From Lactiplantibacillus songbeiensis (GTDB lineage Bacteria > Bacillota > Bacilli > Lactobacillales > Lactobacillaceae): DNA of 42,113 nt. Below the pieces are notes generated by a model. That model was given only the letters and a program-made list of their open reading frames with translations, had not been told where the DNA came from and made no database searches. Within the stretch, counting starts at the first letter, position 1, and each line of letters opens with the position of its first letter. Location of the stretch: the NCBI RefSeq assembly GCF_005405125.1, contig NZ_BJDL01000034.1, positions 1 to 42,113 on the forward strand. The letters run 5' to 3'. Shown here piece by piece: positions 9,866-38,795 of the stretch. The translations under genes were made by a program, and so were the position numbers.

Positions 9866-10138
9866 TACGCTTGGTGCTAGTTGAAATTGCCGCCTGCCGG
9901 TTGGATTCTAAAATAACTGAACTTTAAATCATTAATCGTTAGTTTTTTAATTCCTGTTAGTTAACGACGGGCGGCCCAGAATTGGCTCAGTGGTGTCGTT
10001 TATCTTGGTCGGCAATATTCCGACTTAGATAAAGCCCGGCTTTCGAGACCGCCCTGTGGCTCGAAAACGCGGCCACCACGTTCCAGCCGATTCTGGGCCA
10101 ACCAGAGTGGCAATTTAATCCAACTAGCACCAAGCGTA
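9866..10138. repeat. Composite structured repeat with perfect 18-bp terminal inverted repeats
   Basis: The ends TACGCTTGGTGCTAGTTG and its exact reverse complement bound a 273-bp element. The left part keeps only the edges of the first hairpin unit (up to CCGGTTGG), as if its interior were deleted. The second unit (about 9975-10100) is complete: outer arms CCAGAATTGGCT/AGCCGATTCTGG, and two inner hairpins. It ends 26 bases before the start of the zinc-ribbon membrane protein gene. Confidence 0.85.
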
Positions 10139-10164
10139 CTAACTGATATGGAGGTTACGACTTA

Positions 10165-10581
10165 ATGAAACCATCCTCAAAATGGCTACGACGGCTTCAA
10201 AATTTCATGCGCGGTCGTTATGGTCAAAATGACACGTTAAATAAATGCTTAAACAACTTGGCACTCTTACTGTTAGTCATCAGTATTTTCACTCGAATTG
10301 GCTGGCTAGTCTTAATTGCTTTCCTATTATTAGCCCTTAGTTACTGGCGACTCTTTTCTAAAAAGATCTATCAACAAGTTGCCATCAATCGCGGGTTTCA
10401 ACGGATCTGGTTTCCAATCGTACGACCCTTTACGCGTTTAGGCTATCAGTTTAAGCAACATTGGCGTTACCGGTTCTTTCATTGTGCACAATGCCAGCAA
10501 CGGATTCGAATTCCACGGCACCACGGGCGTGTTCGGGTCACTTGCCCCAAATGTGGCCATCAATTTGAAGCCAGAACTTAA
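10165..10581 (+). CDS. Membrane protein with C-terminal zinc ribbon
   Basis: Protein of 138 residues. A basic N-terminus is followed by a hydrophobic region (about 27-60) that probably makes two membrane passes, then a basic stretch and a C-terminal zinc ribbon with two CxxC pairs (CAQC and CPKC) separated by a basic, His-rich turn. Such ribbons commonly bind zinc; the partner is unknown. A GGAGGT ribosome-binding site precedes the ATG. There is no visible promoter between the structured repeat that ends 26 bases upstream and the start, so the transcript may begin within or before that repeat. Confidence 0.8.
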   Translation: MKPSSKWLRRLQNFMRGRYGQNDTLNKCLNNLALLLLVISIFTRIGWLVLIAFLLLALSYWRLFSKKIYQQVAINRGFQRIWFPIVRPFTRLGYQFKQHWRYRFFHCAQCQQRIRIPRHHGRVRVTCPKCGHQFEART

Positions 10582-10625
10582 ACTCATTTTCAGAAATTAC
10601 TTACGAAAACTTTCATTTTCTGTTA

Positions 10626-10652
10626 CAGTAATCAATTGTGCTCATATTACTG
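10626..10652. promoter_or_regulatory. Inverted repeat before the DHA2-type transporter gene
   Basis: CAGTAAT and ATTACTG arms with a 13-base spacer lie just upstream of the AAGGAG ribosome-binding site. It could be an operator for a local regulator; no regulator gene is adjacent. Confidence 0.35.
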
Positions 10653-10678
10653 GTTACTAGAAGGAGAAAAGTTTTTTT

Positions 10679-12118
10679 ATGAAAAAACAGTCACAATCCA
10701 ATCCAACCTTAATTATGATTGGGTTACTCTTGGGTGGCTTTGTCGGGATGTTTAGTGAAACGGCACTAAACATTGCGCTCCCCCAATTGGAACAACAGTT
10801 ACACGTTAATACCGGGACCATTCAATGGCTGGTCACTGGTTACTTATTAATGGTCGGAATCGTCCTACCATTATCAAGTATGCTGACCAAGCATTTCACC
10901 ACCCGTCAGTTATTAATCTTTGCGTTAGTCGACTTCATGGTTGGGGCCGCCGTCTCAGCCATGGCTGGCAGCTTTGCCATCTTATTAGTCGGGCGAATGA
11001 TTCAAGGGATCGCGACCGGATTGATTCTGCCATTGATTTTTACCGTCTTGTTAGCGATTTATCCGCCACAAAAACGGGGTAGCGCCATGGGACTAGTTGG
11101 GCTAGTCATTATGTTTGCCCCCGCGTTAGGCCCGACCATTGCCGGCCTGATTCTGGGGACGTTATCATGGCACTGGATCTTTTGGTTATTCATTCCATTA
11201 TTGGCGATTGCCTTAATTATCACCCTGATTTTCATGCAAAATGTTTCCGACGTCACCAAGCCGAAAATCGATATTTTATCCATTATTTTATCTTCATTTG
11301 GTTTCGGTGGGTTAGTCGTTGGTGCTAGTCTAGCTGGGGACCAAGGTTGGGGAAATCCCATCGTTTTATTGGCTTTAGTCATTGGGATTGTCGCCCTTTA
11401 CGTGTATGCCCGGCGCCAACTCAAACTGGAGACCCCTATCTTGAATCTGCGGGCTTTCAGCTTCAAGAAGTTCAGTGTCGGGACGATTCTCGTCATGGTC
11501 GACTTTGGGATTATCATGTCATCGATGTACCTTTTGCCAATGTATTGGCAAAAAGGGTTAGTCGTTCCGGTTGCTTTAACCGGGGTCTTAATGTTACCTG
11601 GTGGGATTGTCAATGCAATCGTATCCGCTACCGCTGGCCGCTTATTTGATAACTATGGCGCCAAGTATTTAACTCAGATTGGCTTTGCGTTGAGTTTCGT
11701 AGGGGCGGCAATGCTACTCTTCACGACCACCCATTCAGCTTACTGGTATGTGATCTTAGCCCATGTCATTATTATGATTGGGGCGCCACTCGCCATGTCA
11801 CCAGCCCAAACGTATGGGTTAAACGCTTTACGGGGGCCAGTTGCCGCTGATGGGAGTACCATTCTGAACACGTTACAACAAATCCTGGGCGCCTTAGCAA
11901 CTGCGATTGCAACTAGTTTATTGGGGATTGGTCAGAGTGCCAGTCACGCAACTGGCGCAACGGCCTTTGTTCACGGGACCCATTACGGCTTTTGGTTCAC
12001 CTTAGCACTAGCCGTCTTAGGCTTCTGTCTCTCTTTCTTAGTTAGCAATCAACCAGAAAAATCAATTGATCCACTCGCTGAAAAACGGCACCCAGAACGG
12101 GCAGCTACTGAACATTAA
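10679..12118 (+). CDS. MFS transporter, DHA2 (EmrB/QacA) family
   Basis: Integral membrane protein of 479 residues with about 14 hydrophobic segments, as expected for the DHA2 drug:proton antiporter group. Family features visible are an early FSETALNIALPQL motif in the first helix, LVTGYLLMVGIVLP in the second, GRMIQGIATGLILPL in the fourth and the LGPTIAGLILGTLSWHWIFWLFIPL motif C region. These proteins export toxic or lipophilic compounds using the proton gradient; the substrate here is unknown. The ATG is preceded by AAGGAG with a rather long spacer. The gene stands alone, ended by a strong terminator. Confidence 0.88.
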   Translation: MKKQSQSNPTLIMIGLLLGGFVGMFSETALNIALPQLEQQLHVNTGTIQWLVTGYLLMVGIVLPLSSMLTKHFTTRQLLIFALVDFMVGAAVSAMAGSFAILLVGRMIQGIATGLILPLIFTVLLAIYPPQKRGSAMGLVGLVIMFAPALGPTIAGLILGTLSWHWIFWLFIPLLAIALIITLIFMQNVSDVTKPKIDILSIILSSFGFGGLVVGASLAGDQGWGNPIVLLALVIGIVALYVYARRQLKLETPILNLRAFSFKKFSVGTILVMVDFGIIMSSMYLLPMYWQKGLVVPVALTGVLMLPGGIVNAIVSATAGRLFDNYGAKYLTQIGFALSFVGAAMLLFTTTHSAYWYVILAHVIIMIGAPLAMSPAQTYGLNALRGPVAADGSTILNTLQQILGALATAIATSLLGIGQSASHATGATAFVHGTHYGFWFTLALAVLGFCLSFLVSNQPEKSIDPLAEKRHPERAATEH

Positions 12119-12130
12119 TTTCTAAACTAA

Positions 12131-12178
12131 ATGACCAAGTTAAGATTCGCTAATGAGTCTCAACTTGGTCATTTTTTA
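12131..12178 (+). terminator. Terminator of the DHA2 transporter gene
   Basis: Perfect arms ATGACCAAGTT and AACTTGGTCAT with a 20-base loop, followed by a T-run. Confidence 0.85.
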
Positions 12179-12239
12179 GATTGCACTTTCCCAGCTTTTC
12201 CGCCACAATGGACTTGGACACACACGAGGGGTTTAATTT

Positions 12240-12434
12240 ATGGAAACAACGATTGATTTAATTATTGGTACCAGCACCATCTTAGCCATCATTTGTTTTT
12301 GGCAAACAATTCACTGCTTTCGGCTCGGTCAGAATCGGCTCATGGCCAGTATCTGGCTCGTAGTCGGTTTGCTACTAGTCGGGTTGGCTGGTTTCTTCAT
12401 CTGGGCCGCTATTCCGCTGTGGACTAGTCTTTAG
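12240..12434 (+). CDS. Small two-helix membrane protein
   Basis: Protein of 64 residues with two hydrophobic segments (about 5-22 and 36-58) joined by a basic loop (HCFRLGQNRLM). It has a GAGGGG ribosome-binding site. Only 14 bases separate it from the next gene, so the two are probably co-transcribed. No family recognised. Confidence 0.7.
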   Translation: METTIDLIIGTSTILAIICFWQTIHCFRLGQNRLMASIWLVVGLLLVGLAGFFIWAAIPLWTSL

Positions 12435-12448
12435 AGGGGGTCTGATCA

Positions 12449-12742
12449 ATGAATCCAGCAGAAGTCTTCAATAAATATTTAGATAAGTATCACATCACCA
12501 TGCAGCATCCCGAACATGGGTTAGTGATGTTAACGTCCCCCGTCTGGCCGCAACATCCTGCGTTACAACAAGCAATCTTGCGTGCGTTGCAAGACCTAAA
12601 AGGCGTCTCACAAGTGACGATTAACAGCCCTGAACAACTTGTCATGCGCTACGATTCTAGTGAACTACGACGAATCAATCCATTGACGCTGTTCGCCATT
12701 GAACGCAAGCTTAGCCGCCAATATCATCAGGCCGGCTATTAA
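12449..12742 (+). CDS. 97-residue protein resembling a metal-free HMA-like fold
   Basis: Soluble protein with no cysteine. The pattern HPALQQAILRALQDLKGVSQVTINSP...LVMRYD resembles HMA_2-type ferredoxin-like domains (helix, GV, strand, RYD strand) that lack the CxxC metal site. This is fold-level resemblance only. It has a strong GAGGGGGT ribosome-binding site and follows the small membrane protein gene in what looks like a two-gene operon. A role together with that membrane protein is inference. Confidence 0.65.
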   Translation: MNPAEVFNKYLDKYHITMQHPEHGLVMLTSPVWPQHPALQQAILRALQDLKGVSQVTINSPEQLVMRYDSSELRRINPLTLFAIERKLSRQYHQAGY

Positions 12743-12791
12743 TTAAAAAAGTCGTTACCCAGTAAGCTGAGTAACGACTTTTTTAATTAAT
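12738..12791. terminator. Bidirectional terminator between convergent genes
   Basis: A long perfect palindrome with A/T flanks: AAAAAAGTCGTTAC and GTAACGACTTTTTT around a 12-base loop. It serves the plus-strand HMA-like gene and the minus-strand DUF1398 gene. Confidence 0.9.
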
Positions 12792-12795
12792 AGCT

Positions 12796-13179
12796 TTAAA
12801 ATTCAATGACGGCCATGATCTTACCTTCGGCCCCGGCAAAATCAATGACTTTGCGCTTTAAGTTGGCGGTCCAGGTCTGACAACCAGCCGCGGCTAACCC
12901 TTTAACGGCTTCTGCCAAGCTCAACTTACCAGCGACATAATCCGTCCCTAGTTGTTGGACTTTATCAGCATCTTCTTCAGTGGCTACCTTAGTGCCTAAG
13001 CCATTAGTTAATCGTTCTACCAAGTACCCATTTTCACCAAAGTACGTTGTCGCACCAGCACGTACATCGTATTCAAAATGTTGCACGCCTAGGTCAGCTT
13101 CTTTTTTCGCGATAGTTGCAAAGTCCGCGTGGTCGCCTAAGCTGGCCAAGACTTCATCAATTGCTGCTAATTTAAACAT
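12796..13179 (-). CDS. DUF1398 family protein
   Basis: Cytoplasmic protein of 127 residues. The pattern GVQHFEYDVRAGATTYFGENG and a C-terminal CQTWTANLKRKVIDFAG fit the DUF1398 family (a phage-envelope-like family of unknown function found widely in Firmicutes and enterobacteria). GAGGGAGA precedes the ATG. It lies 47 bases downstream of the permease gene with no terminator between them, so read-through from the permease promoter is likely. Confidence 0.8.
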   Translation of the reverse strand: MFKLAAIDEVLASLGDHADFATIAKKEADLGVQHFEYDVRAGATTYFGENGYLVERLTNGLGTKVATEEDADKVQQLGTDYVAGKLSLAEAVKGLAAAGCQTWTANLKRKVIDFAGAEGKIMAVIEF

Positions 13180-13226
13180 AATTTTATCTCCCTCGTATAA
13201 TTAGTCCGTCTCTATTGTAATCCAAA

Positions 13227-14600
13227 TCAAGCCTGTGTGTCTTTTAACGGGTAGAAAATTCGCATCAATGCCATATAAATCAGCGCAATTAAGATCATAT
13301 CAATAAAGGTTGCACCTAACACGTTCGCAATCAATGGCAGTTGTTTTAAAAGTAAGAATAGGCCGACACCCAAGACCCAACAAATCAGCGCAATCCAATT
13401 CACCCCGTGCGCATACCAATACTGCCCGTGCGAGTTGGCTAATTCATTGACATCATAGTGTTGGTGATGGCGCCAATAATAATCAACCAACATGACACTG
13501 ATCATCGGTCCTAAGACCATCCCAATATAATCTAGAAAAGCCGTGAACGCCGTCAAAAAGCTACCAACCATTAACGGAATTAACGTGACCAAAGTCGCAA
13601 TGATTGTCACCGCCCAAAGTGCTGGCCGTAACCGAATCTTAGGAAAAATATTGGATAATGCCGATCCAGCAGCCAATAGATTAACCGCATTGGCAGTCAT
13701 ACTCGTTAACACGATGACGAGTAACGCCAACACCCCTAACCCTAACCGACTGGCAATCGTACTAGGATCAGAATTATTCGGATCATAAGTCCCCGATGTA
13801 ATCGCAATACTGATTGTCGCGGCAAGACCGATAAAGGCAAACCAGAATAGTCCCGTAAAAGCGCCGAGAAACGGCATCCCGGTTGCGCCGGACCGTTTAC
13901 GCGTGAACCGCGTAAAATCAGCCCCAGCCGTCACCCAAGAGAGGTTAAACGCCGCTAACGTATCCATTCCAGCACCAGATGTCATTTGTAAATGTGCGGG
14001 AGCATGCCAGTGTAATAAATCGCTAAAAGTCACCGTTTGGAAAACCACAATCGTTTCCCATAAGACAAACAAGATGACCAGTATAATTCCAATCCGCTCA
14101 ATCAGTTGTACCGAGCGTTGACCCACCGAGACACTCAGCAAATGCAGCACACTCATCACAACAATACCCAGGACTAACCCTTTAGCACCACCCGGTTTGC
14201 CATAGACTGGCCAACCGACAATGTCATGCAATAAATAACTGACTGAAGTGGCCGCAATAAAGGTATTAACCGCGGTCCAGCCAATATACTGCGTTAAATT
14301 GACAAACGATGGGACATAACTGCCACGAATTCCAAACGAGCCACGAATCAGACTCATCGTAGCGGCACCAGTCCGATAACCCATAAATCCAACTAACGAT
14401 AAACACAAATACGAAAGGGTTGATGAAGCAATAATGACTTTTAAGGCCGTCAGCAAGCCACACGCTGCTAAGACACCGCCAACATACCAGGTCCCGTTAT
14501 TCGCATTCGCACCAATCCACGTCGCAAACATGTCCCAATTTGCCATATGGCGGTGCTTGGTGGGAATCACTTCAATCTGATATTTACTTTCTTGCTTCAC
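13227..14600 (-). CDS. NCS1-family purine/cytosine permease
   Basis: Membrane protein of 457 residues with about 12 hydrophobic segments. The N-terminal phrase ANANNGTWYVGG, the following GYRTGAATMSLIRGSFGIRG, and NLTQYIGWTAVN match the nucleobase:cation symporter-1 family (CodB-like), which takes up cytosine, purines, allantoin or related compounds; the exact substrate cannot be told. I place the start at a GTG with GAAAGGGTG upstream. An in-frame ATG ten codons earlier has no ribosome-binding site and overlaps the -10 box (TACAAT) of the promoter, so it cannot be the start of that transcript. The DUF1398 gene follows. Confidence 0.85.
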   Translation of the reverse strand: MKQESKYQIEVIPTKHRHMANWDMFATWIGANANNGTWYVGGVLAACGLLTALKVIIASSTLSYLCLSLVGFMGYRTGAATMSLIRGSFGIRGSYVPSFVNLTQYIGWTAVNTFIAATSVSYLLHDIVGWPVYGKPGGAKGLVLGIVVMSVLHLLSVSVGQRSVQLIERIGIILVILFVLWETIVVFQTVTFSDLLHWHAPAHLQMTSGAGMDTLAAFNLSWVTAGADFTRFTRKRSGATGMPFLGAFTGLFWFAFIGLAATISIAITSGTYDPNNSDPSTIASRLGLGVLALLVIVLTSMTANAVNLLAAGSALSNIFPKIRLRPALWAVTIIATLVTLIPLMVGSFLTAFTAFLDYIGMVLGPMISVMLVDYYWRHHQHYDVNELANSHGQYWYAHGVNWIALICWVLGVGLFLLLKQLPLIANVLGATFIDMILIALIYMALMRIFYPLKDTQA

Positions 14601-14628
14601 AATGGTCACCCTTTCTACAATGTTATCC

Positions 14629-14658
14629 ATTGTAAGTTTATCCGTTAGCGATGGTCAA
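14629..14658 (-). promoter_or_regulatory. Promoter of the NCS1 permease gene
   Basis: TTGACC, 18 bases, TACAAT on the minus strand. The -10 box overlaps the upstream in-frame ATG, which decides for the downstream GTG start. No purine riboswitch is visible in the very short leader. Confidence 0.6.
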
Positions 14659-14724
14659 GCGTGTTCAACGAATTTCCTGCATTGCGGTGACTAAAAATTA
14701 GCCGTAAGATAAGCTATAATTGCC

Positions 14725-15104
14725 TGGTGCTAGTTGAAATTGCCGCCTGCCGGTTGGTTCCTAAAATGCTGGAACGCCATGGGCCATTTTGAAGCCAAAG
14801 CCCGGTCTTCAAAGCTGGCCTTGGCCTAAGCCCGAGTAGCCCACTCGCACTAAGGCCAACGACACGGCTGAGCATTTTAGGAACCAACCTCTCGGCTAAA
14901 TAACTGAACTTAAAATAATTAATCGTTAATTTTTTAATTCTGGTTAGTTAACGCCGGGCGGGCCAGAATTGGCTCAGTGGTGTCGTTTATCTTGGTCGGT
15001 GATTTTCCGACTTAGATAAAGCCCGGCTTTCGAGACCGCTCTGTGGCTCGAAAACGTGGCCACCACGTTCCAGCCGATTCTGGGCCAACCAGAGTGGAAA
15101 CTTT
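14725..15104. repeat. Composite structured repeat, two opposed hairpin units
   Basis: The left unit (14752-14889, 138 nt) has perfect 19-bp outer arms GGTTGGTTCCTAAAATGCT / AGCATTTTAGGAACCAACC. The right unit (about 14961-15085) has outer arms CCAGAATTGGCT / AGCCGATTCTGG. Read on the opposite strand, the left unit has the same order of parts as the right one (GCTCAG..GTGTCG, hairpin, hairpin with ACCG..TGGCT, CGTTCCAGC), so they are an inverted pair. The left end keeps TGGTGCTAGTTG; the right terminal repeat has decayed. It ends 37 bases before the downstream transporter start. Confidence 0.85.
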
Positions 15105-15141
15105 AGCATCTCAAAAATAATTAAATTAGGAAGTGTATAAC

Positions 15142-16359: not shown

Positions 16360-16419
16360 ATAAAAGGACCGCCAAGCTAATTTGGCCAAAACCAGTTAGC
16401 TTGGCGGTCCTTTTATTTA
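16357..16419. terminator. Long perfect terminator of the DHA1 transporter gene
   Basis: Arms of 24 bases (TAAATAAAAGGACCGCC.. and its complement) with a 15-base loop and T-rich flank. The stop codon TAA is the first triplet of the stem. Confidence 0.9.
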
Positions 16420-16515
16420 CACGAACTTAACACAAACAATATCAACTCTTTACGCCCCTAATATGTTTAAACGGTAAGCTTAAGCTATCAAATTAGTTGC
16501 TAGGGGGGCACTATC

Positions 16516-17211
16516 ATGCCGGTCATCAAACTTAAAAATGTACAGAAAAGTTGTTTAGATCAACCGATTCTTCAACCACTCAACCTCACCTTACCAGCCC
16601 AACAAATTACCGCCATCACCGGGCCAGCCAGTGCTGGTAAAGCCACCTTGCTGAATCTCATTGCTGGCTATCAACAGCCGGATACAGGCCGAATTTACTT
16701 TGATCAGCGCCTGGTCTTCAATGAAACCCATCACTTTAGCTTGCAGCCCCATGATCGGCAGGTCGCCATGCTCTGTCTTGATTTTGCGTTTTGGCCGCAT
16801 CTGACGGTTCGTGAGAATATCGCTTTTCCGTTGCGCAACGAGTTAACGGGTCAGACTTTAGTTACACGGGTCAACCGCGCACTAGTGCAATTAGAACTGA
16901 CTGACTTGCAGGACCGTTATCCCGGCGACCTAAGCCAGTTACAAAAGCAACATCTCGCGCTAGCCCGCATCTTAGCCCAACAGCCAGCCGTACTAATATT
17001 CAATGAAACTTGGAGTCTGGGTAACACTGACTTAGCCAAGCAACTACGAACCACCGTTGCCACTTTAGCGCGGCGCTTAGTGTTAACGACCGTCATGGTC
17101 ACCGAAGATGATCAAGCGGCCGCTCACTTAGCCGACTACCTGGTGGAACTACAACACGGCCAAGTCGTTCAAACTAGTGCCGCAAAAAAACTAGTGCTAA
17201 CAACCAATTAG
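16516..17211 (+). CDS. ABC ATPase-like protein with degenerate catalytic motifs
   Basis: Full-length (231 residues) ABC nucleotide-binding domain by layout, closest to the PotA/MalK-type importer ATPases (HDRQVAML..FWPHLTVRENIAFPL). Every catalytic motif is altered: Walker A is GPASAGKA (36-43, S/T after K replaced by Ala), the Q-loop Gln is Leu88, the LSGGQ signature is LSQLQ (139-143), Walker B is VLIFNE (Asp to Asn163), the D-loop is SLGN, and the H-loop His is Glu197. ATP hydrolysis is therefore unlikely. No permease or binding protein gene is adjacent. The frame is intact with an AGGGGGG ribosome-binding site, so it may act as a regulator or be drifting. Function unknown. Confidence 0.8.
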   Translation: MPVIKLKNVQKSCLDQPILQPLNLTLPAQQITAITGPASAGKATLLNLIAGYQQPDTGRIYFDQRLVFNETHHFSLQPHDRQVAMLCLDFAFWPHLTVRENIAFPLRNELTGQTLVTRVNRALVQLELTDLQDRYPGDLSQLQKQHLALARILAQQPAVLIFNETWSLGNTDLAKQLRTTVATLARRLVLTTVMVTEDDQAAAHLADYLVELQHGQVVQTSAAKKLVLTTN

Positions 17212-17226
17212 GCCGCGCACTAGTTT
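17184..17226 (-). terminator. Terminator of the alpha/beta hydrolase operon inside the ABC-like gene end
   Basis: On the minus strand AAACTAGTGC and GCACTAGTTT pair and run into a T tract. The stem spans the stop of the convergent ABC-like gene. Confidence 0.6.
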
Positions 17227-17234
17227 CAAATGAC

Positions 17235-18173
17235 TTATTTAAGATATTTCGCCATAAAAGTATCGACTTTTTGCGTATACACTTTTGGCTGTTTCGTAAA
17301 GGACTCCGCATGACCAGCACCTGGGACAACCCAGAGTTGTTTATCCTTAACCGTAGTCGCCTGATAGTTTTGATAGACCATCTTCGTTGGCACAAACGTA
17401 TCACTACCGCCATGGATGAAAAAGATTGGCAAGCGATTATGCTTCAATTGCGTTACGGAACTGGCTTTTAAGAAATTAAAATGGGCTTTGGCTTGTGCGA
17501 CCCAACTAGCAGTGTAAATCAACGGGAATTTCGGCAAATGATATAACGCTTTTAACTCATACGTCAATTCATCGCCCACACTCGTATAACCACAATCTTC
17601 AATAATGGCCTTAACTTGCGATGGCAACTGCTCTCCACTCATCATCATGACGGTTGCACCACCCATCGAAACACCAAACAGGCCGATACGACTATCTTGG
17701 CCCACATGGCGAATAACTTGTTGCGTCCATTTGAGATAATCTAAGCGATCCGGCCAACCGAAGCCATAGTAATTACCTTCGCTTTGACCATTACCGCGAT
17801 CATCCGGCGCTAAGACGTTATAGCCTTGGCGATGCCATAAGCGAATATAGCTGGCCATTTGTTCTTTGTTTCCCATATAACCATGCGCCACAATGACGGT
17901 TCGCTTGGTCGCCTTAGCTGCTGGCACAAAATCAGCAACAAGCTTCAAGTTATCCGTTGCCGAGGTTTCCCGCCAAGTCTGCTTGGACACCGTCTTCAAC
18001 CAGTTTTGATTCCGGACCAAGTTCGCATGACTCTTTTTTGAACTATGCGTCAAAACTTTGGGAGTCGGCTCAAAAGCAAAGTGATATAAATAATAACTGC
18101 CGCCCGCAATGCCGATTACGAGCACCGTGACTAAAGCGATAAGCGCTAAAGTCCATTTCTTTCGTCTAGTCAT
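17235..18173 (-). CDS. Membrane-anchored alpha/beta hydrolase
   Basis: Protein of 312 residues with an N-terminal signal anchor (about 7-31) and an extracellular alpha/beta-hydrolase domain. Oxyanion motif HGYMGNKE, nucleophile elbow GVSMGG (Ser169), acid in GGSDTFVP (Asp258) and histidine in GAGHAES (His288) form a complete catalytic triad. Homologues are esterase-like hydrolases of lactobacilli and bacilli; the substrate is unknown. The ATG follows GAGAGGAACG; a TTG one codon upstream was rejected. The DUF1836 gene ends 24 bases upstream on the same strand, suggesting an operon. Confidence 0.85.
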   Translation of the reverse strand: MTRRKKWTLALIALVTVLVIGIAGGSYYLYHFAFEPTPKVLTHSSKKSHANLVRNQNWLKTVSKQTWRETSATDNLKLVADFVPAAKATKRTVIVAHGYMGNKEQMASYIRLWHRQGYNVLAPDDRGNGQSEGNYYGFGWPDRLDYLKWTQQVIRHVGQDSRIGLFGVSMGGATVMMMSGEQLPSQVKAIIEDCGYTSVGDELTYELKALYHLPKFPLIYTASWVAQAKAHFNFLKASSVTQLKHNRLPIFFIHGGSDTFVPTKMVYQNYQATTVKDKQLWVVPGAGHAESFTKQPKVYTQKVDTFMAKYLK

Positions 18174-19413: not shown

Positions 19414-19581
19414 ATTATTCAGTTAACTCGGCCACTGCGACTAAGTCAACAACGTCGTCACTAACCAACCTTGATATAACTCAATTCATATGCAACTAAG
19501 TTTTAAACACCACAACTCAAAATTTCTGGTCCATTTAGCCGCTGCCGCTTGTCATCACTAATATGCTAATCGTTCCGCTCC

Positions 19582-19719
19582 GGTTAGGCTGGATTGATGC
19601 TGGAACGTGGTGGCCGCGTTTACGAGCCAAAGTACGGTCTCGCAAGCCGGGCTTTCACTAGGTCGAGAAAGCCACTCGGCCAAGTGAAATTTCACCACTG
19701 AGCATCATCCAGCCTAACC
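19582..19719. repeat. Single structured repeat unit, variant outer stem
   Basis: Outer arms GGTTAGGCTGGATTGATGCT / AGCATCATCCAGCCTAACC enclose the family core (GGAACGTGGTGGCC, ACGAGCC..GGTCTCG, GCCGGGCTT, CACCACTGAGC) read in reverse orientation. The first inner stem is TTTCACT/AGTGAAA, different from but paired like other copies. Confidence 0.8.
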
Positions 19720-19790
19720 TACGCTAAATAGCAGGCTAATTGTAATTAAACTTAATCTTCTATGTTGATTAGCCTAACTTTAGTCGCAGT

Positions 19791-19941
19791 GACCAGTAGA
19801 TTCGCCGTGTCGAATCACTTAGACCGGTGAGTTTTCCGGTCTTAGTGATTGGGCCAGCTTGTTAGACGTGGTTTTCGGCTAACAAGTGCCCTGCAGACCG
19901 TTCTTTGGCTGCAGGTCTGCCCCACCGCGAACCTGCTGGTC
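19791..19941. repeat. Diverged structured element with an extra hairpin
   Basis: Outer arms GACCAGTAGATTCGC / GCGAACCTGCTGGTC (two wobbles) enclose CGTGTCG, a stem AATCACTTAGACCGG/CCGGTCTTAGTGATT, a stem CTTGTTAG/CTAACAAG, and a third CTGCAG..CTGCAG hairpin. The order of parts matches the repeat family though little primary sequence is shared. Confidence 0.6.
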
Positions 19942-19962
19942 AACGGAGACGGCCAATCACAT

Positions 19963-22198: not shown

Positions 22199-22311
22199 TA
22201 TAAATTTCCTCCCCATAACCCTTTTTTTCCTGGTTAGTTTTAGTCTATCATGAAAACCATTAACAGAAAGATTTGTTAACCAATTGTAAAACAATCGACA
22301 TATATTCTTAG

Positions 22312-22709
22312 TACGGCTGGTGTTAGTTAAAATTGCCGCCTGCCGGTTGGTTCCTAAAACGCTGGAACGCCATGGACCATTTTGAAGCCGCAGCCCGGTC
22401 TTCAAAGCTGGCCTTGGCCTAAGTCCGAGCAGACCACTCGCACTAAGGCCAACGACACGGCTGAGCATTTTAGGAACCAACCTCTCGGCTAAATTTGTAG
22501 TCGACAATAAATAGTCATTAATTTCTGTTAATTAACATCGGGCGGGCCAGAATTGGCTCAGTAGTGTCGTTTATCTAAGTCGTTGTTCTTCCGACTTAGA
22601 TAAAGCCCGGCTTGGAAGAACGTACTTCGGTTTCCAAACGCGGTCACCACGTTCCAGCCGATTCTGGCCCAACCAGAGTGACAATCTAATCCAACTAGCA
22701 CCAAATATA
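22312..22709. repeat. Composite structured repeat, complete two-unit copy
   Basis: First unit 22345-22482 (138 nt; outer arms as in the 14.7-kb copy, with one C-A mismatch), second unit about 22545-22669. The ends TACGGCTGGTGTTAGTT and CCAACTAGCACCAAATATA are diverged terminal inverted repeats. Inner stems TTTATCTAAGTCG/CGACTTAGATAAA and TTGGAA/TTCCAA stay paired. Confidence 0.85.
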
Positions 22710-22834
22710 CCTCAAGCATAGCTGGTTAACTGACTAAATGTACAAAATATTAAATAGTTTGTTGCCATGATTAACGAAATCCGGGTCAACATTGGTATAA
22801 TTAGACCATAAACTCAAAAACGGAGGTGTGCGGA

Positions 22835-31008: not shown

Positions 31009-31014
31009 ACTACA

Positions 31015-31289: not shown

Positions 31290-31465
31290 ATTAGCGGCGG
31301 GCGGACTGGATGACGCTCAGTGGTGTCGTTTGACTTAGGTCGGGTGACTTTTCCCGGCCTTAGTCAAAGCCCGGCTTGTGAGACCGAATTTTGGCTCACA
31401 AACGTGGCCACCACGTTCCAGCGTCAATCCAGGCCAACCAGAGCGGTAACTCAATCCAACTAACA
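31290..31465. repeat. Structured repeat unit, variant stems
   Basis: Outer arms CTGGATGACGCT / AGCGTCAATCCAG (31306-31432), inner stems TTTGACTTAGGTCGGG / CCCGGCCTTAGTCAAA and TTGTGAG/CTCACAA. Compared with other copies, both members of each pair have changed. The right end keeps AATCCAACTAACAATT, a decayed terminal repeat. Confidence 0.82.
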
Positions 31466-31525: not shown

Positions 31526-31573
31526 AAAAAATCGTCCCCGCAGTACTCTTCAAACTGCGTGAACGATTTTTTA
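31526..31573 (-). terminator. Terminator of the MarR gene
   Basis: AAAATCGT..GCAGT and ACTGC..ACGATTTT arms; T-runs on both sides, so it could act in either direction. Confidence 0.75.
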
Positions 31574-31604
31574 AAATGATTGACACTTTTTATAAGTTTC
31601 TAGT

Positions 31605-32102: not shown

Positions 32103-32213
32103 AATAAAAATCTCCCTTTCAATTTAAAAGTCGAATTAGTCCATAAGTTGTCATAATTCGCTCCAAAGTTATTTTAAAATTAGTAAGCGTCTTTTATCAT
32201 TTCCCCGATTTAA

Positions 32214-32242
32214 AGTGTACTAGTATATTTTACGAAATACAA
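32214..32242 (-). promoter_or_regulatory. Promoter and possible operator of the MarR gene
   Basis: TTGTAT, 17 bases, TACACT on the minus strand. A TACTAGTA palindrome sits between the boxes. A similar TACTAATATA..TTTT sequence lies at 33051-33067 by the TetR/pckA intergenic region. Confidence 0.5.
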
Positions 32243-32264
32243 GGAATTTAGGTTATCTTTTATA

Positions 32265-32942: not shown

Positions 32943-33067
32943 CCCCCTCGCCTGTCAGTTAACTGGTGACCCAAATTAACCAGCTTAATTATTTTATCAT
33001 ATCAACGAACTATTTTTAGAATTTCTCGTTATTTTTCCCTTTTAAAGCTATACTAATATACTTTTCA

Positions 33068-33251
33068 GTGCAAGTTTAAGACCAGTGTGAGCCGCAGTCA
33101 ATCATGCTTAATCACCTAAAGAGGGGTAATTCTCATCACATGTACCCGATTGGGTAAGTTGCCTTATCAACCAATAAGTTTTTATGTAATCGCTTAACCA
33201 CGCGTTTCTGATGGTTGCTTCAAGGAGCGTGGCAGGCCGGTACAACTACAA
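33068..33251. other. Long untranslated region between TetR and pckA
   Basis: No convincing gene or known riboswitch. It contains a TATACT box at 33051 on the plus strand, so pckA may have a second, distant promoter with a leader of about 260 bases. Confidence 0.35.
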
Positions 33252-33265
33252 ATAAAGCGCTTTCA
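33252..33265 (+). promoter_or_regulatory. Probable cre site before pckA
   Basis: ATAAAGCGCTTTCA matches 12 of 14 positions of the catabolite-response element consensus TGWAANCGNTNWCA. It overlaps the expected -35 region of the pckA promoter, where CcpA binding would repress transcription in glucose. Confidence 0.6.
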
Positions 33266-33278
33266 ACAACGTTTTTTG

Positions 33279-33287
33279 TGGTAAACT
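33279..33287 (+). promoter_or_regulatory. Extended -10 promoter of pckA
   Basis: TGGTAAACT lies 34 bases before the pckA start codon, downstream of the cre-like site. Confidence 0.45.
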
Positions 33288-33320
33288 TAATCTATTAAAC
33301 ATGATAGGGAGGTATCCAGC

Positions 33321-34973
33321 ATGAGTACTCAAAATTCATATCAATTAGCTGATATCGGTCGTCATAACCCAATCTTTTCACAAATTCGATCGACCGTTGA
33401 GACCGCTTTTTACGCTAATAACATGACCCACGTCCCAAATGTCGCAACGGCCTACGAATTAGCCGTCAATGGTCCCGGAACCGTTAAGACCGATTTACCG
33501 ATCTATCGGGCAACTGATCTTGGCTTACCGGCAGACGCCAAAATGCTCGTTGAAAATACCGGTAAGGTGGTCGGCCGGACTGCGCAAGCGCGGCGAATTC
33601 TCGGGACGGCCGGCGTTGATGAAGCCGATATGGCAGGACGGCTCCGTCAAGCCATCTATAATGCTCAAAACGAACACTTCATCAAAACAGATGTCTTCGT
33701 TGGCTTAGACAACGACTTTATCGTGCGGGCCCACTTAGCGATTCAGGATAACTATGCGAACAATTTGCTATCCTACATGCTCAACTTCCAGCCGATTACT
33801 AAGCAGTATCAGGACATATTCGACAATTCGGTCGCTTATCCTGAAGGTGATATTTACATTTATGCGGATCCCACCTATCATGACCCAGATTATCCTGACG
33901 GCCTAGCAATTTTTGATCCCGAACATAACGTTGCGGCCATCTTGGGGATGCCCTATTTTGGCGAATTAAAGAAGTCCACCCTGACCTTAGCATGGTCGAT
34001 TGCGCATCGGCACGGCTACGTTGCTTGTCACGGCGGCTTAAAAGCGTTTCATTTCACCGACAAGCAAGATCAAGTCTTCGCGATGTTTGGTTTATCCGGT
34101 TCCGGTAAGTCAACGTTGACGCATGCCAAGCATGGCTACAAATACGATATTACCGTTCTGCATGACGATGCCTTTGTGATTAACCGCAAAAATGGGAGTT
34201 CAGTTGCTTTAGAACCGTCTTACTTTGATAAAACGAACGACTATCCCATGGCTTCTAATGAACCCAAGTACTTTATGACGATTCAAAATGTCGGGGTCAC
34301 ATTAGACGATCAGGGCCGCAAAGTTCTCGTTACTGAAGACTTGCGTAATGGTAACGGGCGGACGATTAAGTCGCGCTATGCCTCCACGAACCGGGTTGAC
34401 AAAGAAGCGGCGCCAATTAATGCCATCTTCTGGATTATGAAGGATGATTGCCTACCACCCGTAATCAAAGTCGATGATCCGATTCTCGCGGCAACTTTTG
34501 GGGCGACTTTAGCAACTAAACGGAGCTCTGCTGAAAACTTGATCGGTAATGTTGACCGTAACGCCTTAGTCATCGAACCATTCGCCAATCCATTCAGAGT
34601 TTATCCACTATCTGAAGATTACCATGACTTTAAGGCCTTATTTGAAGACCGCCATTTGGACTGCTACTTGCTTAATACGGGTTACTTTGGCGACAAAAAA
34701 GTTCCTAAAGAAGTTACACTTGGCGCTTTAGAAGCCATTGTCAACGGAACAACTGAATGGGAATCCTTCGCTGGCTTGGATCACATGCAAAACTTAAAGT
34801 TAGCTGATTTCCCAGTTGATTATGATAATCCTGATTATCGTAACTTAGTGGCAACGCGTTTGGAGATTCGCTCAAACTTCATTGACCATTATCAACATAC
34901 GCATAACGACCGGTTACCACACGAAACCAGTGATGTCTTGATCAAATTACAACAACAATTGAAGCGCAACTAA
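33321..34973 (+). CDS. pckA: Phosphoenolpyruvate carboxykinase (ATP)
   Basis: Cytoplasmic enzyme of 550 residues interconverting oxaloacetate plus ATP and phosphoenolpyruvate plus CO2 and ADP. YFGELKKS (212-219), the P-loop GLSGSGKST (257-265) and the kinase-2 motif HDDAF (281-285) are present, followed by the family's YFMTIQNVGVTLDD and SRYASTNRVD regions. The sequence belongs to the diverged lactobacillal branch of the family. In lactobacilli without a full TCA cycle the enzyme may run in either direction. GGGAGG precedes the ATG. A cre-like site indicates carbon-catabolite control. Confidence 0.93.
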   Translation: MSTQNSYQLADIGRHNPIFSQIRSTVETAFYANNMTHVPNVATAYELAVNGPGTVKTDLPIYRATDLGLPADAKMLVENTGKVVGRTAQARRILGTAGVDEADMAGRLRQAIYNAQNEHFIKTDVFVGLDNDFIVRAHLAIQDNYANNLLSYMLNFQPITKQYQDIFDNSVAYPEGDIYIYADPTYHDPDYPDGLAIFDPEHNVAAILGMPYFGELKKSTLTLAWSIAHRHGYVACHGGLKAFHFTDKQDQVFAMFGLSGSGKSTLTHAKHGYKYDITVLHDDAFVINRKNGSSVALEPSYFDKTNDYPMASNEPKYFMTIQNVGVTLDDQGRKVLVTEDLRNGNGRTIKSRYASTNRVDKEAAPINAIFWIMKDDCLPPVIKVDDPILAATFGATLATKRSSAENLIGNVDRNALVIEPFANPFRVYPLSEDYHDFKALFEDRHLDCYLLNTGYFGDKKVPKEVTLGALEAIVNGTTEWESFAGLDHMQNLKLADFPVDYDNPDYRNLVATRLEIRSNFIDHYQHTHNDRLPHETSDVLIKLQQQLKRN

Positions 34974-35077
34974 CTAAGGATTTCATTCTTGCCCCGTTTT
35001 TTTCAAATTAAGGTTATAATGAAAGTATCAGTTACAAGCACTGAACTTTTACGAATCTAATAATCGGGGTGAAGAGC

Positions 35078-35269
35078 ATGGAACTACCATTAAGTCAGTT
35101 ATCTGAAAAAATCATTGCGTTCGAACGGGATCACCATTTGACCGATAATGATTTAGCCTTTGGCAGTCAATTATCAGTGGAACGAATCCATAACATTAAA
35201 TCTGGTGAAATGACGCCAACACAAGAAGAAGTTCAATTATTGAAGAAATTCATGAATAGCAAAAGCTAA
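35078..35269 (+). CDS. Small HTH-like protein (LBP_cg2779-like)
   Basis: Protein of 63 residues whose central part (LTDNDLAFGSQLSVERIHNIKSG, interrupted by the turn) looks like a helix-turn-helix of the Cro/XRE kind. I recall a lactobacillal family named LBP_cg2779 of this form, but the match is from memory. Its target is unknown. The ATG follows GGGGTG; a GTG three codons upstream overlaps it. A TATAAT box lies about 60 bases upstream and a terminator follows. Confidence 0.72.
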   Translation: MELPLSQLSEKIIAFERDHHLTDNDLAFGSQLSVERIHNIKSGEMTPTQEEVQLLKKFMNSKS

Positions 35270-35273
35270 ACAA

Positions 35274-35310
35274 CACTAAAAAGACCCCCGCTTGGGAGGC
35301 CTTTTTTAGT
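35274..35310 (+). terminator. Terminator of the small HTH-like gene
   Basis: ACTAAAAAGACC and GGCCTTTTTTAGT arms with one mismatch and a T-run. Confidence 0.75.
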
Positions 35311-35346
35311 GATATTTTGATTGCCGCTTACCGGTTTTCGATTAGA

Positions 35347-35640
35347 CTTGCCACTCTGGTTGGCCCAGAATCGGCTGGAACGTGGTGGCCACGTTTTCGA
35401 GCCACAGGTCGGTCTCGAAAGCCGGGCTTTATCTAAGTCGCAAAACCACGACTAAGATAAATGACACCACTGAGCCAATTCTGGACCACCCGGCGTTAAA
35501 ATTAACCGCTATTTAGATCTTATCAATTACTTACTTCAACCTGTTGCCTTAGCCAAGCTATTAATTTCAAACTAGCCATGACGTGCCAGCATCTAGAAGC
35601 CACCCAGCAAATGACAATTTCAACTAATACCAAACGCATT
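35347..35640. repeat. Structured repeat, reverse orientation, with decayed flank
   Basis: One complete hairpin unit (about 35349-35495; GGCCCAGAATCGGCTGG ... GCCAATTCTGGACC) with inner stem TTTCGAG/CTCGAAA. The rest to 35640 is diverged sequence ending in CAACTAATACCAAACGCATT, a decayed terminal inverted repeat. The second unit is absent. Confidence 0.75.
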
Positions 35641-35674
35641 AAATAATCAAATTAAACCCATTATTAATACGCCT

Positions 35675-36799
35675 TTACCGAACATGGATTGCAAAGCTAG
35701 GGGTAAAGTAGGCGGTGCTCTTAACAGAGACCGTTTCGCCGTAATCTGGTGAGGCGATATATTTGCCATTGCCTAAATAAATCCCAACATGATAAGGTGC
35801 GGAATCAGCTCCCCAGAAAACCAAATCGCCAACTTGGGCTTGACCAAAGGAAATATGCGTTCCAGCCGTAGCCTGCGTATATGTCGTGCGGCCAATGGTG
35901 ATTCCAGCCTTAGCATAAGCAGCTTGCGTAAAGGCTGAACAATCCATTTGTTCGTACGGTGTCCCTAAATAAGAATAGGCTGCCGCAACAATAGCACTTG
36001 AAGTCGCGGTCCCAGTAGTATTGGTCGTCGAACTTGAACTACTGGTCGTTGATGAACTCGAACTAGCTGATCTCGTAGCGGTGCTGGTGCTAGCTGCTGA
36101 AGTTGTGTTACCAGTACTGCTACTCGTGACTGAACTAGGTGCCGTGGTACTAGCGCTGGTCGCTGAACTGGTTGACCCTTGACTAGTGACACTTGAGCTG
36201 GCCGCGCTAGAACTACTTTGACTAGCTGTTTGCACATGTGCCCGGGTGGCCGCGCTACTAGTACGATTTGCTGAGCTTGTTACCGCACTACTGCTGACAC
36301 TGCTGGCGGCACTGGTGCTGTTTTGACTAGCTGAACTGGCCGTTGATCCACTTTGACTAGTCGTGATTGACTTGGCCGCCGTTGAACTAGCGCTGATTGC
36401 TGAAGTCGAACTAGCACTCGTCGCCGATGTCGCGGTCGAACTAGCAGTAGTCGCGGTATGACTGCTTACTGCTTGACTCGTACTTTGGCTTGCCGCAGTA
36501 CTGGTCCCACTTTGATTAGTCGTGGTCGATTTAGCGGCGCTGGTCGTGGTTGACCTAGTTGCCGGCTCACCAGTTGGAATCGTAATCTGATGACCAGCAA
36601 TAATTAAATTGGCATCGCTAAGATGATTCGCCGCAACAATTTTTTTAATTGACACATGGTACTTTTGAGAATAATTCCAGACGGTATCGCCCGTTTGGAT
36701 GGTAAAGGTATCAGCATTAGCGACACTTTGCCCGGCGACTAATAAGCCGGCTAAAGCAGCCGTCCCTAACATTGCTGATTTTAAATTGATTTTGATAAT
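35675..36799 (-). CDS. LysM-NlpC/P60 peptidoglycan endopeptidase
   Basis: Secreted wall hydrolase of 374 residues. A signal peptide is followed by one LysM domain (TFTIQTGDTVWNYSQKYHVS..IIAGHQITIP), a very long Ser/Thr/Ala linker, and a C-terminal NlpC/P60 domain with catalytic Cys287 (MDCSAF) and His337 (APYHVGIYLG). The family cuts D-glutamyl-diamino-acid bonds in stem peptides. Start is unusual: the first ATG (at 36772) leaves a signal peptide without a charged N-region and has no ribosome-binding site. Nine codons upstream an ATT lies six bases after GGAG and would add IKINLKSA; I prefer it. A WalR-like box overlaps the promoter. Confidence 0.83.
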   Translation of the reverse strand: MIKINLKSAMLGTAALAGLLVAGQSVANADTFTIQTGDTVWNYSQKYHVSIKKIVAANHLSDANLIIAGHQITIPTGEPATRSTTTSAAKSTTTNQSGTSTAASQSTSQAVSSHTATTASSTATSATSASSTSAISASSTAAKSITTSQSGSTASSASQNSTSAASSVSSSAVTSSANRTSSAATRAHVQTASQSSSSAASSSVTSQGSTSSATSASTTAPSSVTSSSTGNTTSAASTSTATRSASSSSSTTSSSSSTTNTTGTATSSAIVAAAYSYLGTPYEQMDCSAFTQAAYAKAGITIGRTTYTQATAGTHISFGQAQVGDLVFWGADSAPYHVGIYLGNGKYIASPDYGETVSVKSTAYFTPSFAIHVR

Positions 36800-36891
36800 G
36801 AGTCACTCCAAAGAAAAAGTCACGTATGACACTTTCAAGCCACTCTCTATATTACTCAGTTTGTATGACATTGAGGTACCAGATAAATAAC

Positions 36892-36920
36892 ATTATATTG
36901 CATAGGTTACATTTAGTTAA
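36892..36920 (-). promoter_or_regulatory. Promoter of the NlpC/P60 gene
   Basis: TTAACT, 17 bases, TATAAT on the minus strand, giving a leader of about 85 bases. Confidence 0.55.
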
Positions 36921-36922
36921 CA
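36906..36922 (-). promoter_or_regulatory. WalR-like box
   Basis: TGTTAA-CTAAA-TGTAAC is an exact fit to the WalR consensus TGTWAH-N5-TGTWAH. WalRK is known to control wall hydrolase genes, which suits the gene downstream. Confidence 0.6.
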
Positions 36923-36961
36923 GTATGACTAATCCCAGCTAAAAACAATCTTTTTTGTCAC

Positions 36962-36991
36962 AAAAAAATCTGGAGCCGCAACTCCAGATTT
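36962..36991 (-). terminator. Terminator of the 110-residue protein gene
   Basis: AAATCTGGAG and CTCCAGATTT arms followed by a T-run on the minus strand. Confidence 0.85.
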
Positions 36992-37028
36992 CATCAATAG
37001 TCTTCATTAAAGGTGCCAAGTCAGTCCC

Positions 37029-37361
37029 CTAACTGATTTGGTGGTGACGATGGATGCGTGGTAAACCTAAGAGCCACCGAATATCATTACCAGTGAAGTT
37101 TAACTTCACAAATTCGGTTTGGCGCGCCTGGTCGTACATCGTGGTGACGACTTTAGTATCAAGTTCGATCACCCGGCGAGCGACTTCTTCATCGAACAAA
37201 TAAAGCAATGTGGCTTCAGTAATTTGCGTAATTGAGAAAATTTCCGCGGCATTATCAAATAAATCAGTTTTGCTACGTTGTAATTGAACCGTACGAAACT
37301 GGTCGTAAGCTTGATTCAAAACAAATTCAGCTTGCGTGGTTAATGCGGTCGTGGCTGCCAT
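37029..37361 (-). CDS. 110-residue protein of unknown function
   Basis: Cytoplasmic protein with no signal or membrane segment. It is predicted mostly helical, with acidic stretches in the middle (LLYLFDEEVARRVIELDTKVVTT in parts) and a basic, His-rich end (RIHRHHQIS). I do not recognise the family. It has a strong GAGGGGGTC ribosome-binding site and its own terminator, so it is probably expressed alone. Confidence 0.7.
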   Translation of the reverse strand: MAATTALTTQAEFVLNQAYDQFRTVQLQRSKTDLFDNAAEIFSITQITEATLLYLFDEEVARRVIELDTKVVTTMYDQARQTEFVKLNFTGNDIRWLLGLPRIHRHHQIS

Positions 37362-37607
37362 TTTTAAAAGACCCCCTCTTTAAATTATCCCTATTTTAAC
37401 GAGCCTGGTCCAAATTAGCTATCGCCAACCCTCTATTTATTAGGAAATTTTTTATACACCCTTTTAAACATGGCTTTATCTTGACACTAACTAACGTGTC
37501 CTGGCCGATTCGCAAACTTGCACATTCGACTTTTTATGGTACGCTCAGTCTTAGATCGCTCAATGATCTAGCTTAATGAACTTACTAAATAAATGAGGCG
37601 AATACTT

Positions 37608-38315
37608 TTGCAACAAGTAAAGACGATCATTATTACGGGTGCCACGAGTGGCATTGGTAAAGCAACCGCGTTATTAGCAGCCAGCCATGGCCATCAAGTT
37701 GTGCTAGCCGCGCGCAAAGAAGCTGATTTGCAGGCCACTGCTGAAACCATTCAACAAGCGGGTGGTCAGGCAGTTTTTAAGGTAACTGATGTTAGTAAGC
37801 AGGCTGACGTTCAAGCTTTGATTGATTTTACCATAGCCAAGTATGGTCGTATTGATGTGTTGGACCTAAACGCTGGGGTGATGAGCTTCGCACCCATGAA
37901 CGAAGTCAGAGTTGATGAATGGGAAAAGATGATCGACATCAACGTTAAAGGTGTGCTATATGGTCTAGCTGCAGCCATTCCGGTAATGGAAAAGCAACAA
38001 AGTGGCCAGATCATTGCGACTGATTCAACTGCGGGCCATCAAGTTGGTCAAAATAATACGGTTTATGCTAGCACAAAGTTTAGTGTCCGAGCCATTATGG
38101 ATGGGGTCCGGGCAGAAGAAGCCAAGGCACACATTAGAACCATGATGGTGTCACCAGCATTTGTTAAGACGGGGTTCTTTGAAGACCAAAGAAATGCTAA
38201 TTTAGAACAAGTTCCTAAATTAAGTCCTGAAAACATTGCCGCGGCTGTCCTATTCGCTATTGAACAGCCGGCTAATGTGGATATTAACGAAATTGTTTTA
38301 CGACCAACTTTATAA
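37608..38315 (+). CDS. Short-chain dehydrogenase/reductase
   Basis: NAD(P)-dependent oxidoreductase of 235 residues with a complete classical SDR set: TGATSGIG (10-17), NAG (88-90), catalytic Ser140, Tyr153 and Lys157 (YASTK). The Arg at 36 (LAARK) suggests NADPH preference. Substrate unknown. I take a TTG start because GAGG lies eight bases upstream; an in-frame ATG five codons earlier has no ribosome-binding site and in fact overlaps it. Confidence 0.87.
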   Translation: MQQVKTIIITGATSGIGKATALLAASHGHQVVLAARKEADLQATAETIQQAGGQAVFKVTDVSKQADVQALIDFTIAKYGRIDVLDLNAGVMSFAPMNEVRVDEWEKMIDINVKGVLYGLAAAIPVMEKQQSGQIIATDSTAGHQVGQNNTVYASTKFSVRAIMDGVRAEEAKAHIRTMMVSPAFVKTGFFEDQRNANLEQVPKLSPENIAAAVLFAIEQPANVDINEIVLRPTL

Positions 38316-38330
38316 TTAGCATCAATAACG

Positions 38331-38360
38331 AGCTTTGTAGCGCCTTTACGAAGCTTTTTC
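38331..38360 (+). terminator. Terminator of the SDR gene
   Basis: AGCTTTGTA and TACGAAGCT arms (one wobble) followed by TTTTC. Confidence 0.65.
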
Positions 38361-38396
38361 TGTCTATTAAAATTGTGATCCACTATGATAAACTTA

Positions 38397-38795
38397 ACGC
38401 TTGGTACTAGTTGGCTTAAATTGCCACTCTGGTTGGGCCAGAAACGGCTGGAACGTGGTGGCCGCGTTTGGAAGCCAAAGTACGGGCTTCCAAGCCGGGC
38501 TTTATCTAAGTCGGAAAATCACCAACTAAGATAAACGACACCACTGAGCCAATTCTGGCCCGCCCGGCGTTAATTAACGGCATTACTGATAATAATCTAT
38601 TGTCGACCAAAAATTTAGCCGAGAGGTTGGTTCCTAAAATGCTCAGCCGTGTCGTTGGCCTTAGTGCGAGTGGTCTGCTCGGATTTAGGCCAAGGCCAGC
38701 TTTGAAGACCGCACTTTGGCTTCAAAATGGCCCATGGCGTTCCAGCGTTTTAGGAACCAACCGGCAGGCGGCAATTTCAACTGGCATCAAACGTA
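38397..38795. repeat. Composite structured repeat, reverse orientation
   Basis: A full two-unit copy inverted relative to those at 14.7 and 22.3 kb. First unit about 38433-38568, second unit 38625-38762 (138 nt, one mismatch in the 19-bp outer stem). Ends ACGCTTGGTACTAGTTG and CAACTGGCATCAAACGTA are imperfect inverted repeats. It ends 34 bases before the downstream gene's start. Confidence 0.87.

Follow-up and report, generated by a model that had tools for sequence, protein, structure and literature searches.

Covarying intergenic repeats of Lactiplantibacillus songbeiensis as putative arms of a MITE-type element

A family of intergenic repeats with compensatory changes in its stems recurs along the 42,113-nucleotide contig NZ_BJDL01000034.1 of Lactiplantibacillus songbeiensis (analysed at full length and called here the window), which raises the question of what these units are and what keeps their fold. 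Judged from sequence comparisons, the units are best described as the arms of a non-autonomous transposable element of the miniature inverted-repeat transposable element (MITE) type. Taken as a whole, the reading of a MITE-like element that is mobilised in this genus by insertion sequences (IS) of the IS982 family, and whose fold is selected in the copies that multiply, seems to us probable.

Units, arms and their fold

The eleven units listed in a preliminary description of the window were all found at their places, five on the plus strand and six on the minus strand. A covariance model (R1) returned 13 rows in the window, corresponding to these eleven units, a partial unit (19805–19896) and an antisense shadow of the unit at 14748–14893. 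Two kinds of unit, A and B, share one layout, consisting of a long outer stem, an asymmetric internal loop (CA / GTTCC) and a 6-bp stem that leads into a junction carrying two hairpins. A B arm on the minus strand and an A arm on the plus strand build a composite of about 395 bp, in which the 5' ends of both arms point towards the centre. The family described earlier is real, but its unit is an arm of a larger element, and the divergent pairing had been overlooked. The features of the window are as follows (TIR, terminal inverted repeat):

118–182, minus strand: 3' fragment of an A arm including the outer end (repeat family D6; blastn of the composite, query 325–373)
9867–10137, plus strand: element with both TIRs and an A arm only (unit 9965–10107); absent at the same place in L. 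dongliensis
14719–15107, arms on both strands: composite, B arm 14748–14893 (minus) and A arm 14952–15094 (plus); inverted orientation in L. dongliensis
19540–19960 (outer limits approximate), arms on both strands: second-subtype pair, unit 19578–19723 (minus) and partial unit 19805–19896 (plus), then an extra hairpin
22312–22704, arms on both strands: composite, B arm 22341–22486 (minus) and A arm 22536–22678 (plus); query of the first genome searches
31295–31443, plus strand: A-type arm with no recognised partner or TIR; arm part at about 31326–31403 missing in L. dongliensis
35337–35640, minus strand: element with A arm 35354–35495 (minus) and decayed end 35594–35636; absent from L. dongliensis
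38397–38795, arms on both strands: composite in reverse, A arm 38427–38569 (minus) and B arm 38621–38766 (plus); perfect 7-bp target duplication
41953–42113, minus strand: left end and B arm (41982–42113) of a composite cut by the contig end; repeat and R1 matches

The range of 9866–38795 first given for the family does contain units, but it should run to the end of the window, and the fragment at 118–182 was missed. By the limits drawn in this analysis, elements fill about 6% of the window; they measure about 250–400 bp here and about 900 bp in two relatives (G019 and G016), and no open reading frame (ORF) of at least 80 aa lies wholly inside any of those in the window.

The divergent layout prevails among distinct adjacent unit pairs less than 700 bp apart, taken from the own-genome sample described below and 72 loci of relatives: 74 of 84 are minus-plus, five plus-plus, five minus-minus and none plus-minus. 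The TIRs start with ACGC, and those of the composite begin with ACGCTTGGTGCTAGTTG at both ends. This TIR pattern (up to 3 mismatches) occurs at 244 places in the 3.03-Mb genome of L. songbeiensis, vs 14 for the reversed pattern. Within 440 kb of that genome, sampled as stretches chosen near known copies or TIRs, a unit was found inside 76 of 84 TIRs, the other eight being explained by relics, an interrupted copy, the end of a stretch or probable chance matches. Both arms were present in 48 of 75 elements with both TIRs (part of these loci having been fetched via the A motif or the full composite), whereas 22 keep A (one of them partly) with B lost or damaged, three rows (two loci) have B without A, and two have neither arm; in the own-genome stretches and the window alone, A was kept at 15 loci vs 2 for B. 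Relics of 128 bp with both TIRs and no recognised arm were observed in L. songbeiensis (L133, 8285–8412) and in L. dongliensis (L228, 1379–1506).

Covariation was analysed mainly in two alignments. The first (A1, 38 units) derives from 88 sources searched with a loose motif. The 217 hits comprised 208 distinct sequences, which fell into 87 clusters, and many of the cluster representatives were false; 42 of these 87 had at least 10 outer-stem pairs by RNAfold and four more were dropped as out of register or deleted, so that the filter is biased towards the outer stem and not towards the inner stems. The other (A3, 98 rows) was aligned by covariance model and hence leans to the structure. In A1, 41 of 53 pairs changed on both sides at least once and 95.7% of cells pair; on each of five measures, all 500 shuffles fell short of the real alignment, and pairing dropped to 30–47% when the partner was slid by 1–3 columns, every slid version being lower. 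Under a tree-based null (a simulation of our own resembling R-scape, not R-scape itself), 15 column pairs were significant in A1, all 15 of them in the structure, and 39 in A3, of which 34 were in the structure, three next to it and two joined the first and last columns. The compensatory changes claimed in the preliminary description, exceeding shuffled, slid and tree-simulated controls, were thus borne out.

The absence of a named family, also proposed there, agrees with Rfam (release 15), which at the gathering threshold returned for the window and nine loci only a tRNA gene (39266–39338). At permissive thresholds, a scan of 411 bases and ten loci gave a chance-level microRNA match inside 22300–22710; the other hits were a T-box lying outside the unit and two more at chance level, with no match to the units. 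The family was not found described in a literature search that left out most subscription journals.

Transposition and the candidate mover

Direct repeats of 7, 8 or 9 bp flank many of the elements. Among 68 two-ended copies from L. songbeiensis and three relatives, they were perfect in 18 and carried at most one mismatch in 31, the expectation from shuffled flanks being 0.29 and 0.93, respectively. In addition, comparison with L. dongliensis (G008; 81–93% identity to the window along the longer aligned blocks) revealed empty sites both ways: the element at 9867–10137 is absent from L. dongliensis, where the target stands once, and an L. dongliensis element with a perfect 8-bp duplication corresponds to an empty target in the window. 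These elements are thus transposable and have moved since the split between the two species. A single arm suffices, since in 4 of 11 A-only elements the duplication has no more than one mismatch in seven positions.

TIRs, target duplications, empty sites, lack of coding sequence and ends in common with an autonomous element, by which a MITE is recognised, were thus all found. A+T richness, usual in MITEs without defining them, is not seen in the arms of L. songbeiensis, mostly of 50–60% G+C in a window of 45%; arms of other genera range from 31%. The interpretation as a multi-copy, structured and covarying family stands, but the preliminary description had missed that it forms a mobile element with TIRs, 7–9 bp duplications and empty sites, and that its ends recur in IS982-family elements.

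Ends in AC and duplications of variable length are traits of the IS982 family, which prompted the search for IS982; 5'-AC ends and variable direct repeats are both found in the element. Passages of a review of this family (PMC7335449) likewise list 5'-AC ends as conserved and direct repeats as varying in length, and place ISLpl4 of L. plantarum within it; the word MITE is absent from its main text. PF13612 matched 15 of the 21 Lactiplantibacillus genomes (11 above the family cut-off). One of two TIR variants (up to 3 mismatches) was located at both ends in 12 of 20 fetched PF13612 loci, the remaining eight including partial or decayed matches. The IS982 element of L. nangangensis (L248) carries the same 17 bases (ACGCTTGGTGCTAGTTG) as the element at both ends, flanked by the duplication ATCAATT; of seven IS982 elements inspected, four showed duplications (7, 7, 8 and 9 bp) and three none, and two IS982 proteins scored 219 and 228 bits with the NCBIfam IS982 model (cut-off 130).

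Since IS982 elements in the genus and the element studied here agree in their ends and in the variable length of their duplications, it is likely, and strongly inferred, that an IS982-family transposase moves the element in trans in Lactiplantibacillus. The element would not be IS982 itself, and would at most be mobilised by it, as there is no transposase gene inside: no ORF of IS982-transposase size was detected in the window elements. An autonomous copy with the same TIR and arms was not found in G019, in the 440-kb sample or in a gap of G175, a genome of another genus (g4). In G019, TIR pairs less than 3 kb apart are spaced by 400–1080 bp (by eye, among about 100 of 133 places), and the 2.6-kb gap between two units of G175 contains two ORFs that, by eye, are not transposase-like.

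Distribution and ends in other genera

A blastn search with the window element matched 16 of 80 relatives, in 3 of 48 genera. With model R1, 19 of 21 genomes of the genus were matched, as well as 57 of 201 Lactobacillaceae genomes in 12 of 40 genera when 15 candidates per genome were scored. Rescoring 150 candidates in each of 18 genomes of other genera gave from 1 to at least 150 matches. The L. songbeiensis genome contains at least 150, and its 440-kb sample alone gave 126 R1 rows, of which 11 are antisense shadows. Two 2.6-Mb genomes of the genus (G001 and G002) showed no model match; G002 nevertheless has IS982 elements with nearly the same TIR.

In G019, ends resembling ACGCATTGTGCTAGTTA were detected at 64 and 69 places, vs 4 and 10 for the control. 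The elements of G175 end in GGTTCTTTCTTAAGTTAGGTTA, with duplications mostly of 7 bp: 6 of 12 had at most one mismatch in seven (0.66 expected), five of them of 7 bp and one of 12 bp. In a further genome (G099), the ends of four aligned copies look different again, by eye. Because the TIRs differ between genera, the arms are older than their present ends, or else have changed ends. As a mover in genus g4, the ISL3 family was considered and not adopted: one ISL3 locus (L269; NCBIfam 242 bits, cut-off 180) has ends matching the G175 element at 19 of 22 bases, being the sole one of 20 ISL3 loci with such ends on both sides, but its duplication is of 8 bp vs mostly 7 bp in G175.

Plasmid records gave no match for the window element or for that of G175. 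With the 900-bp relative, 26 plasmid records were matched (19 of Lactiplantibacillus and 7 of Ligilactobacillus), none over 80% of its length; the hosts of these partial relatives were L. plantarum, L. pentosus, L. paraplantarum and Ligilactobacillus (e.g., NZ_AP028149.1, 29246–29951). Plasmids may carry the element from one species to another. In the two plasmid regions inspected, no listed feature lay under the match (the gene table being incomplete). With regard to phage carriage, two queries gave no match. A 19-base motif found in at least 69 genome stretches (39 of Lactiplantibacillus and 30 elsewhere) and a 17-base motif found in 4 viral contigs were discarded for the 34 sequences outside the genus, which were taken as chance matches because blastn of the whole composite matched none of them.

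Strand bias and accounts of the fold

If only one strand's fold matters, G-T would be tolerated in the stems and A-C would not. Both were counted in A1, in A3 and in the own-genome units (A2, with the 11 antisense rows left out); the counts are of cells rather than independent events, and a preference for G-T over A-C is built into both the model and the outer-stem filter. Over all paired columns, hairpin tips where G-T is common included, the G-T:A-C ratio was 116:18 (A1), 397:94 (A2) and 263:28 (A3). In columns with at least 80% Watson-Crick pairs it was 52:16, 124:80 and 127:27, and in the inner stems alone 31:12, 81:58 and 85:15, respectively. The G-T excess in well-paired columns thus ranges from 1.6 to 4.7 fold and is weakest in the window's own genome. 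Because G-T exceeds A-C in well-paired columns, one strand's fold is favoured. Of the two origins offered in the preliminary description, selection or the manner of copying, this favours selection acting on the fold of one strand: if one half of a stem were copied onto its partner, Watson-Crick pairs lacking such a bias would be expected. Singleton mutations in the own genome show little of this bias (29:20, not significant). As the bias is weakest in the own genome and the singletons are not significantly biased, little speaks for a host role at individual sites; the data suggest a fold that is filtered in the lineages that go on to multiply and decays afterwards.

In the mechanism that we propose, an IS982-family transposase would move the element in trans, and the fold would work on one strand, as RNA or as single-stranded DNA. 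Its most likely role would be that of a cis-acting aid to mobilisation, which we put forward less firmly than the mover. Selection would act on the fold in copies that go on to multiply, with near-free decay after insertion. Two findings lead us to prefer, with modest confidence, a role of the arms in the element's own mobilisation over a host role: the bias stands out between species but is faint among recent mutations, and the elements are distributed roughly in proportion to intergenic length (a crude gene caller allowed 66 of 76 to be placed).

Several observations weigh against this account. No intact IS982 transposase was found in the draft genome of L. songbeiensis, its single match having six stops and falling below the family cut-off, and beyond the TIR no resemblance between the arms and IS982 was noticed, though no systematic search for one was made. 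Of the 68 flank pairs, 37 lack a duplication at up to one mismatch, and the element at one of the two empty sites, 9867–10137, has itself an imperfect, decayed duplication. In addition, the strand bias of the own genome is uneven between the arms, transitions leaving a wobble vs breaking the pair being 60:22 in A arms and 28:28 in B arms (copies, not events). Finally, neither promoters nor terminators were conspicuous in the two elements that were scanned, so that transcription is hypothetical.

A broader and rather doubtful possibility is that a mobile structured module, found in a dozen genera of Lactobacillaceae, parasitises different insertion sequences by taking on their ends, its strand-specific three-way-junction fold, in the form of RNA or single-stranded DNA, being needed for spread; these ends would be those of IS982 in Lactiplantibacillus, clearly other in a second genus and tentatively other in a third. 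A strand-biased fold with strong covariation could also belong to an RNA that serves the host, with the arms acting as leaders, insulators or mRNA 3' ends that regulate adjacent genes; transposition would have spread them, and the regulatory role would be why they are retained. Three of the window elements do lie between divergent ORFs, two of them at 40 bp or less from a start codon. However, the placed elements showed no enrichment between divergent genes (15, with 19.6 expected; 29 co-directional, with 30.5 expected; 22 convergent, with 15.9 expected) and several sites differ between close species, which, together with singletons that show no significant bias, makes a host-serving RNA unlikely.

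Templated correction is known in near-palindromes, and the arms are near-palindromes; they could be mere foldback DNA, whose compensatory changes arise when one half of a stem is copied onto its partner and whose fold has no function. The modest G-T excess in the well-paired columns of the own genome fits such a process, but it does not predict the 3- to 5-fold excess of G-T over A-C across species (A1 and A3, inner stems included), and the unpaired TCA 5' of the 6-bp stem and TTCC 3' of it are invariant or nearly so in the 38 units; we consider this explanation improbable. That the element is a mobile small RNA gene, with trans-acting arms transcribed from a central two-way promoter, is quite unlikely: the divergent layout would suit it and passages of PMC10969869 discuss small RNAs from MITEs as a possibility, but in the two elements scanned the spacer of 22312–22704 has one promoter-like site (shuffle mean 0.3) and that of a relative two (mean 1.4), and the A-only copies lack the paired layout.

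The preferred reading thus assigns the element to a known kind, the MITEs. Bacterial MITEs such as RUP, Correia, ERIC and Nezha have, in the passages of PMC3049150 and PMC10969869 that treat them, the same TIRs, duplications, non-coding nature and many intergenic copies, and for some of them those passages report that movement was proposed via IS with the same ends. Here, in contrast, covariation maintains a single three-way-junction fold in two divergent arms throughout a dozen genera, the arms have a high G+C content in L. songbeiensis and the TIRs vary from genus to genus. IS982-family elements such as ISLpl4, likened by description, share the AC ends and variable repeats (according to passages of PMC7335449), whereas the element has no transposase gene and the TIR is the sole part seen in common. 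The BOX repeats of Streptococcus pneumoniae, modular, structured and in many copies in the account given in part of PMC3049150, are likened by description only.

Other comparisons are looser. The bcr1 repeats of Bacillus cereus are mobile intergenic repeats with a conserved RNA-like fold, but they belong to another host group and are likened by description, not by sequence. Integron attC sites, with strand-specific folding and sequence-variable stems, offer an analogy only; no integrase or cassettes were seen here, and TIRs and duplications are present. REP/RAYT systems combine a short hairpin, which bears a tag tetranucleotide, with a RAYT transposase, a definition that the size and TIRs of the element do not fit. 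An element of the single-strand IS200/IS605 type, with same-strand hairpins at both ends, no TIR and no duplication, was ruled out by the opposite-strand arms, the TIRs and the duplications. The unit is common in Lactobacillaceae, food-used genera included, yet it matches no Rfam family; and a strongly covarying fold linked to mobile DNA makes it testable whether a folded module helps a non-autonomous transposon to move.

These elements may also alter gene order and break assemblies. The composite at 14719–15107 lies at the same place in L. dongliensis (contig C3; L227, about 17130–17535) in inverted orientation, with 96.8% identity over 377 bp between flanking blocks that are about 86% identical, an in-place flip for which recombination between the arms is perhaps the route. 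Adjoining the partial unit of the second subtype, 58 bases with an extra hairpin (19900–19958) have at least 40 matches in G020 and about 20 in L. dongliensis, at 76–98% identity, and are probably the end of this subtype with one more hairpin. For the stretch at 37471–38815 (about 1.3 kb, a 240-aa ORF and the composite element), no counterpart was found at that place in L. dongliensis. Finally, the window is a whole contig that ends inside the element at 41953–42113, and several other contigs of the same assembly (G000) have TIRs within about 400 bases of their start; the repeats may break the assembly at these points.

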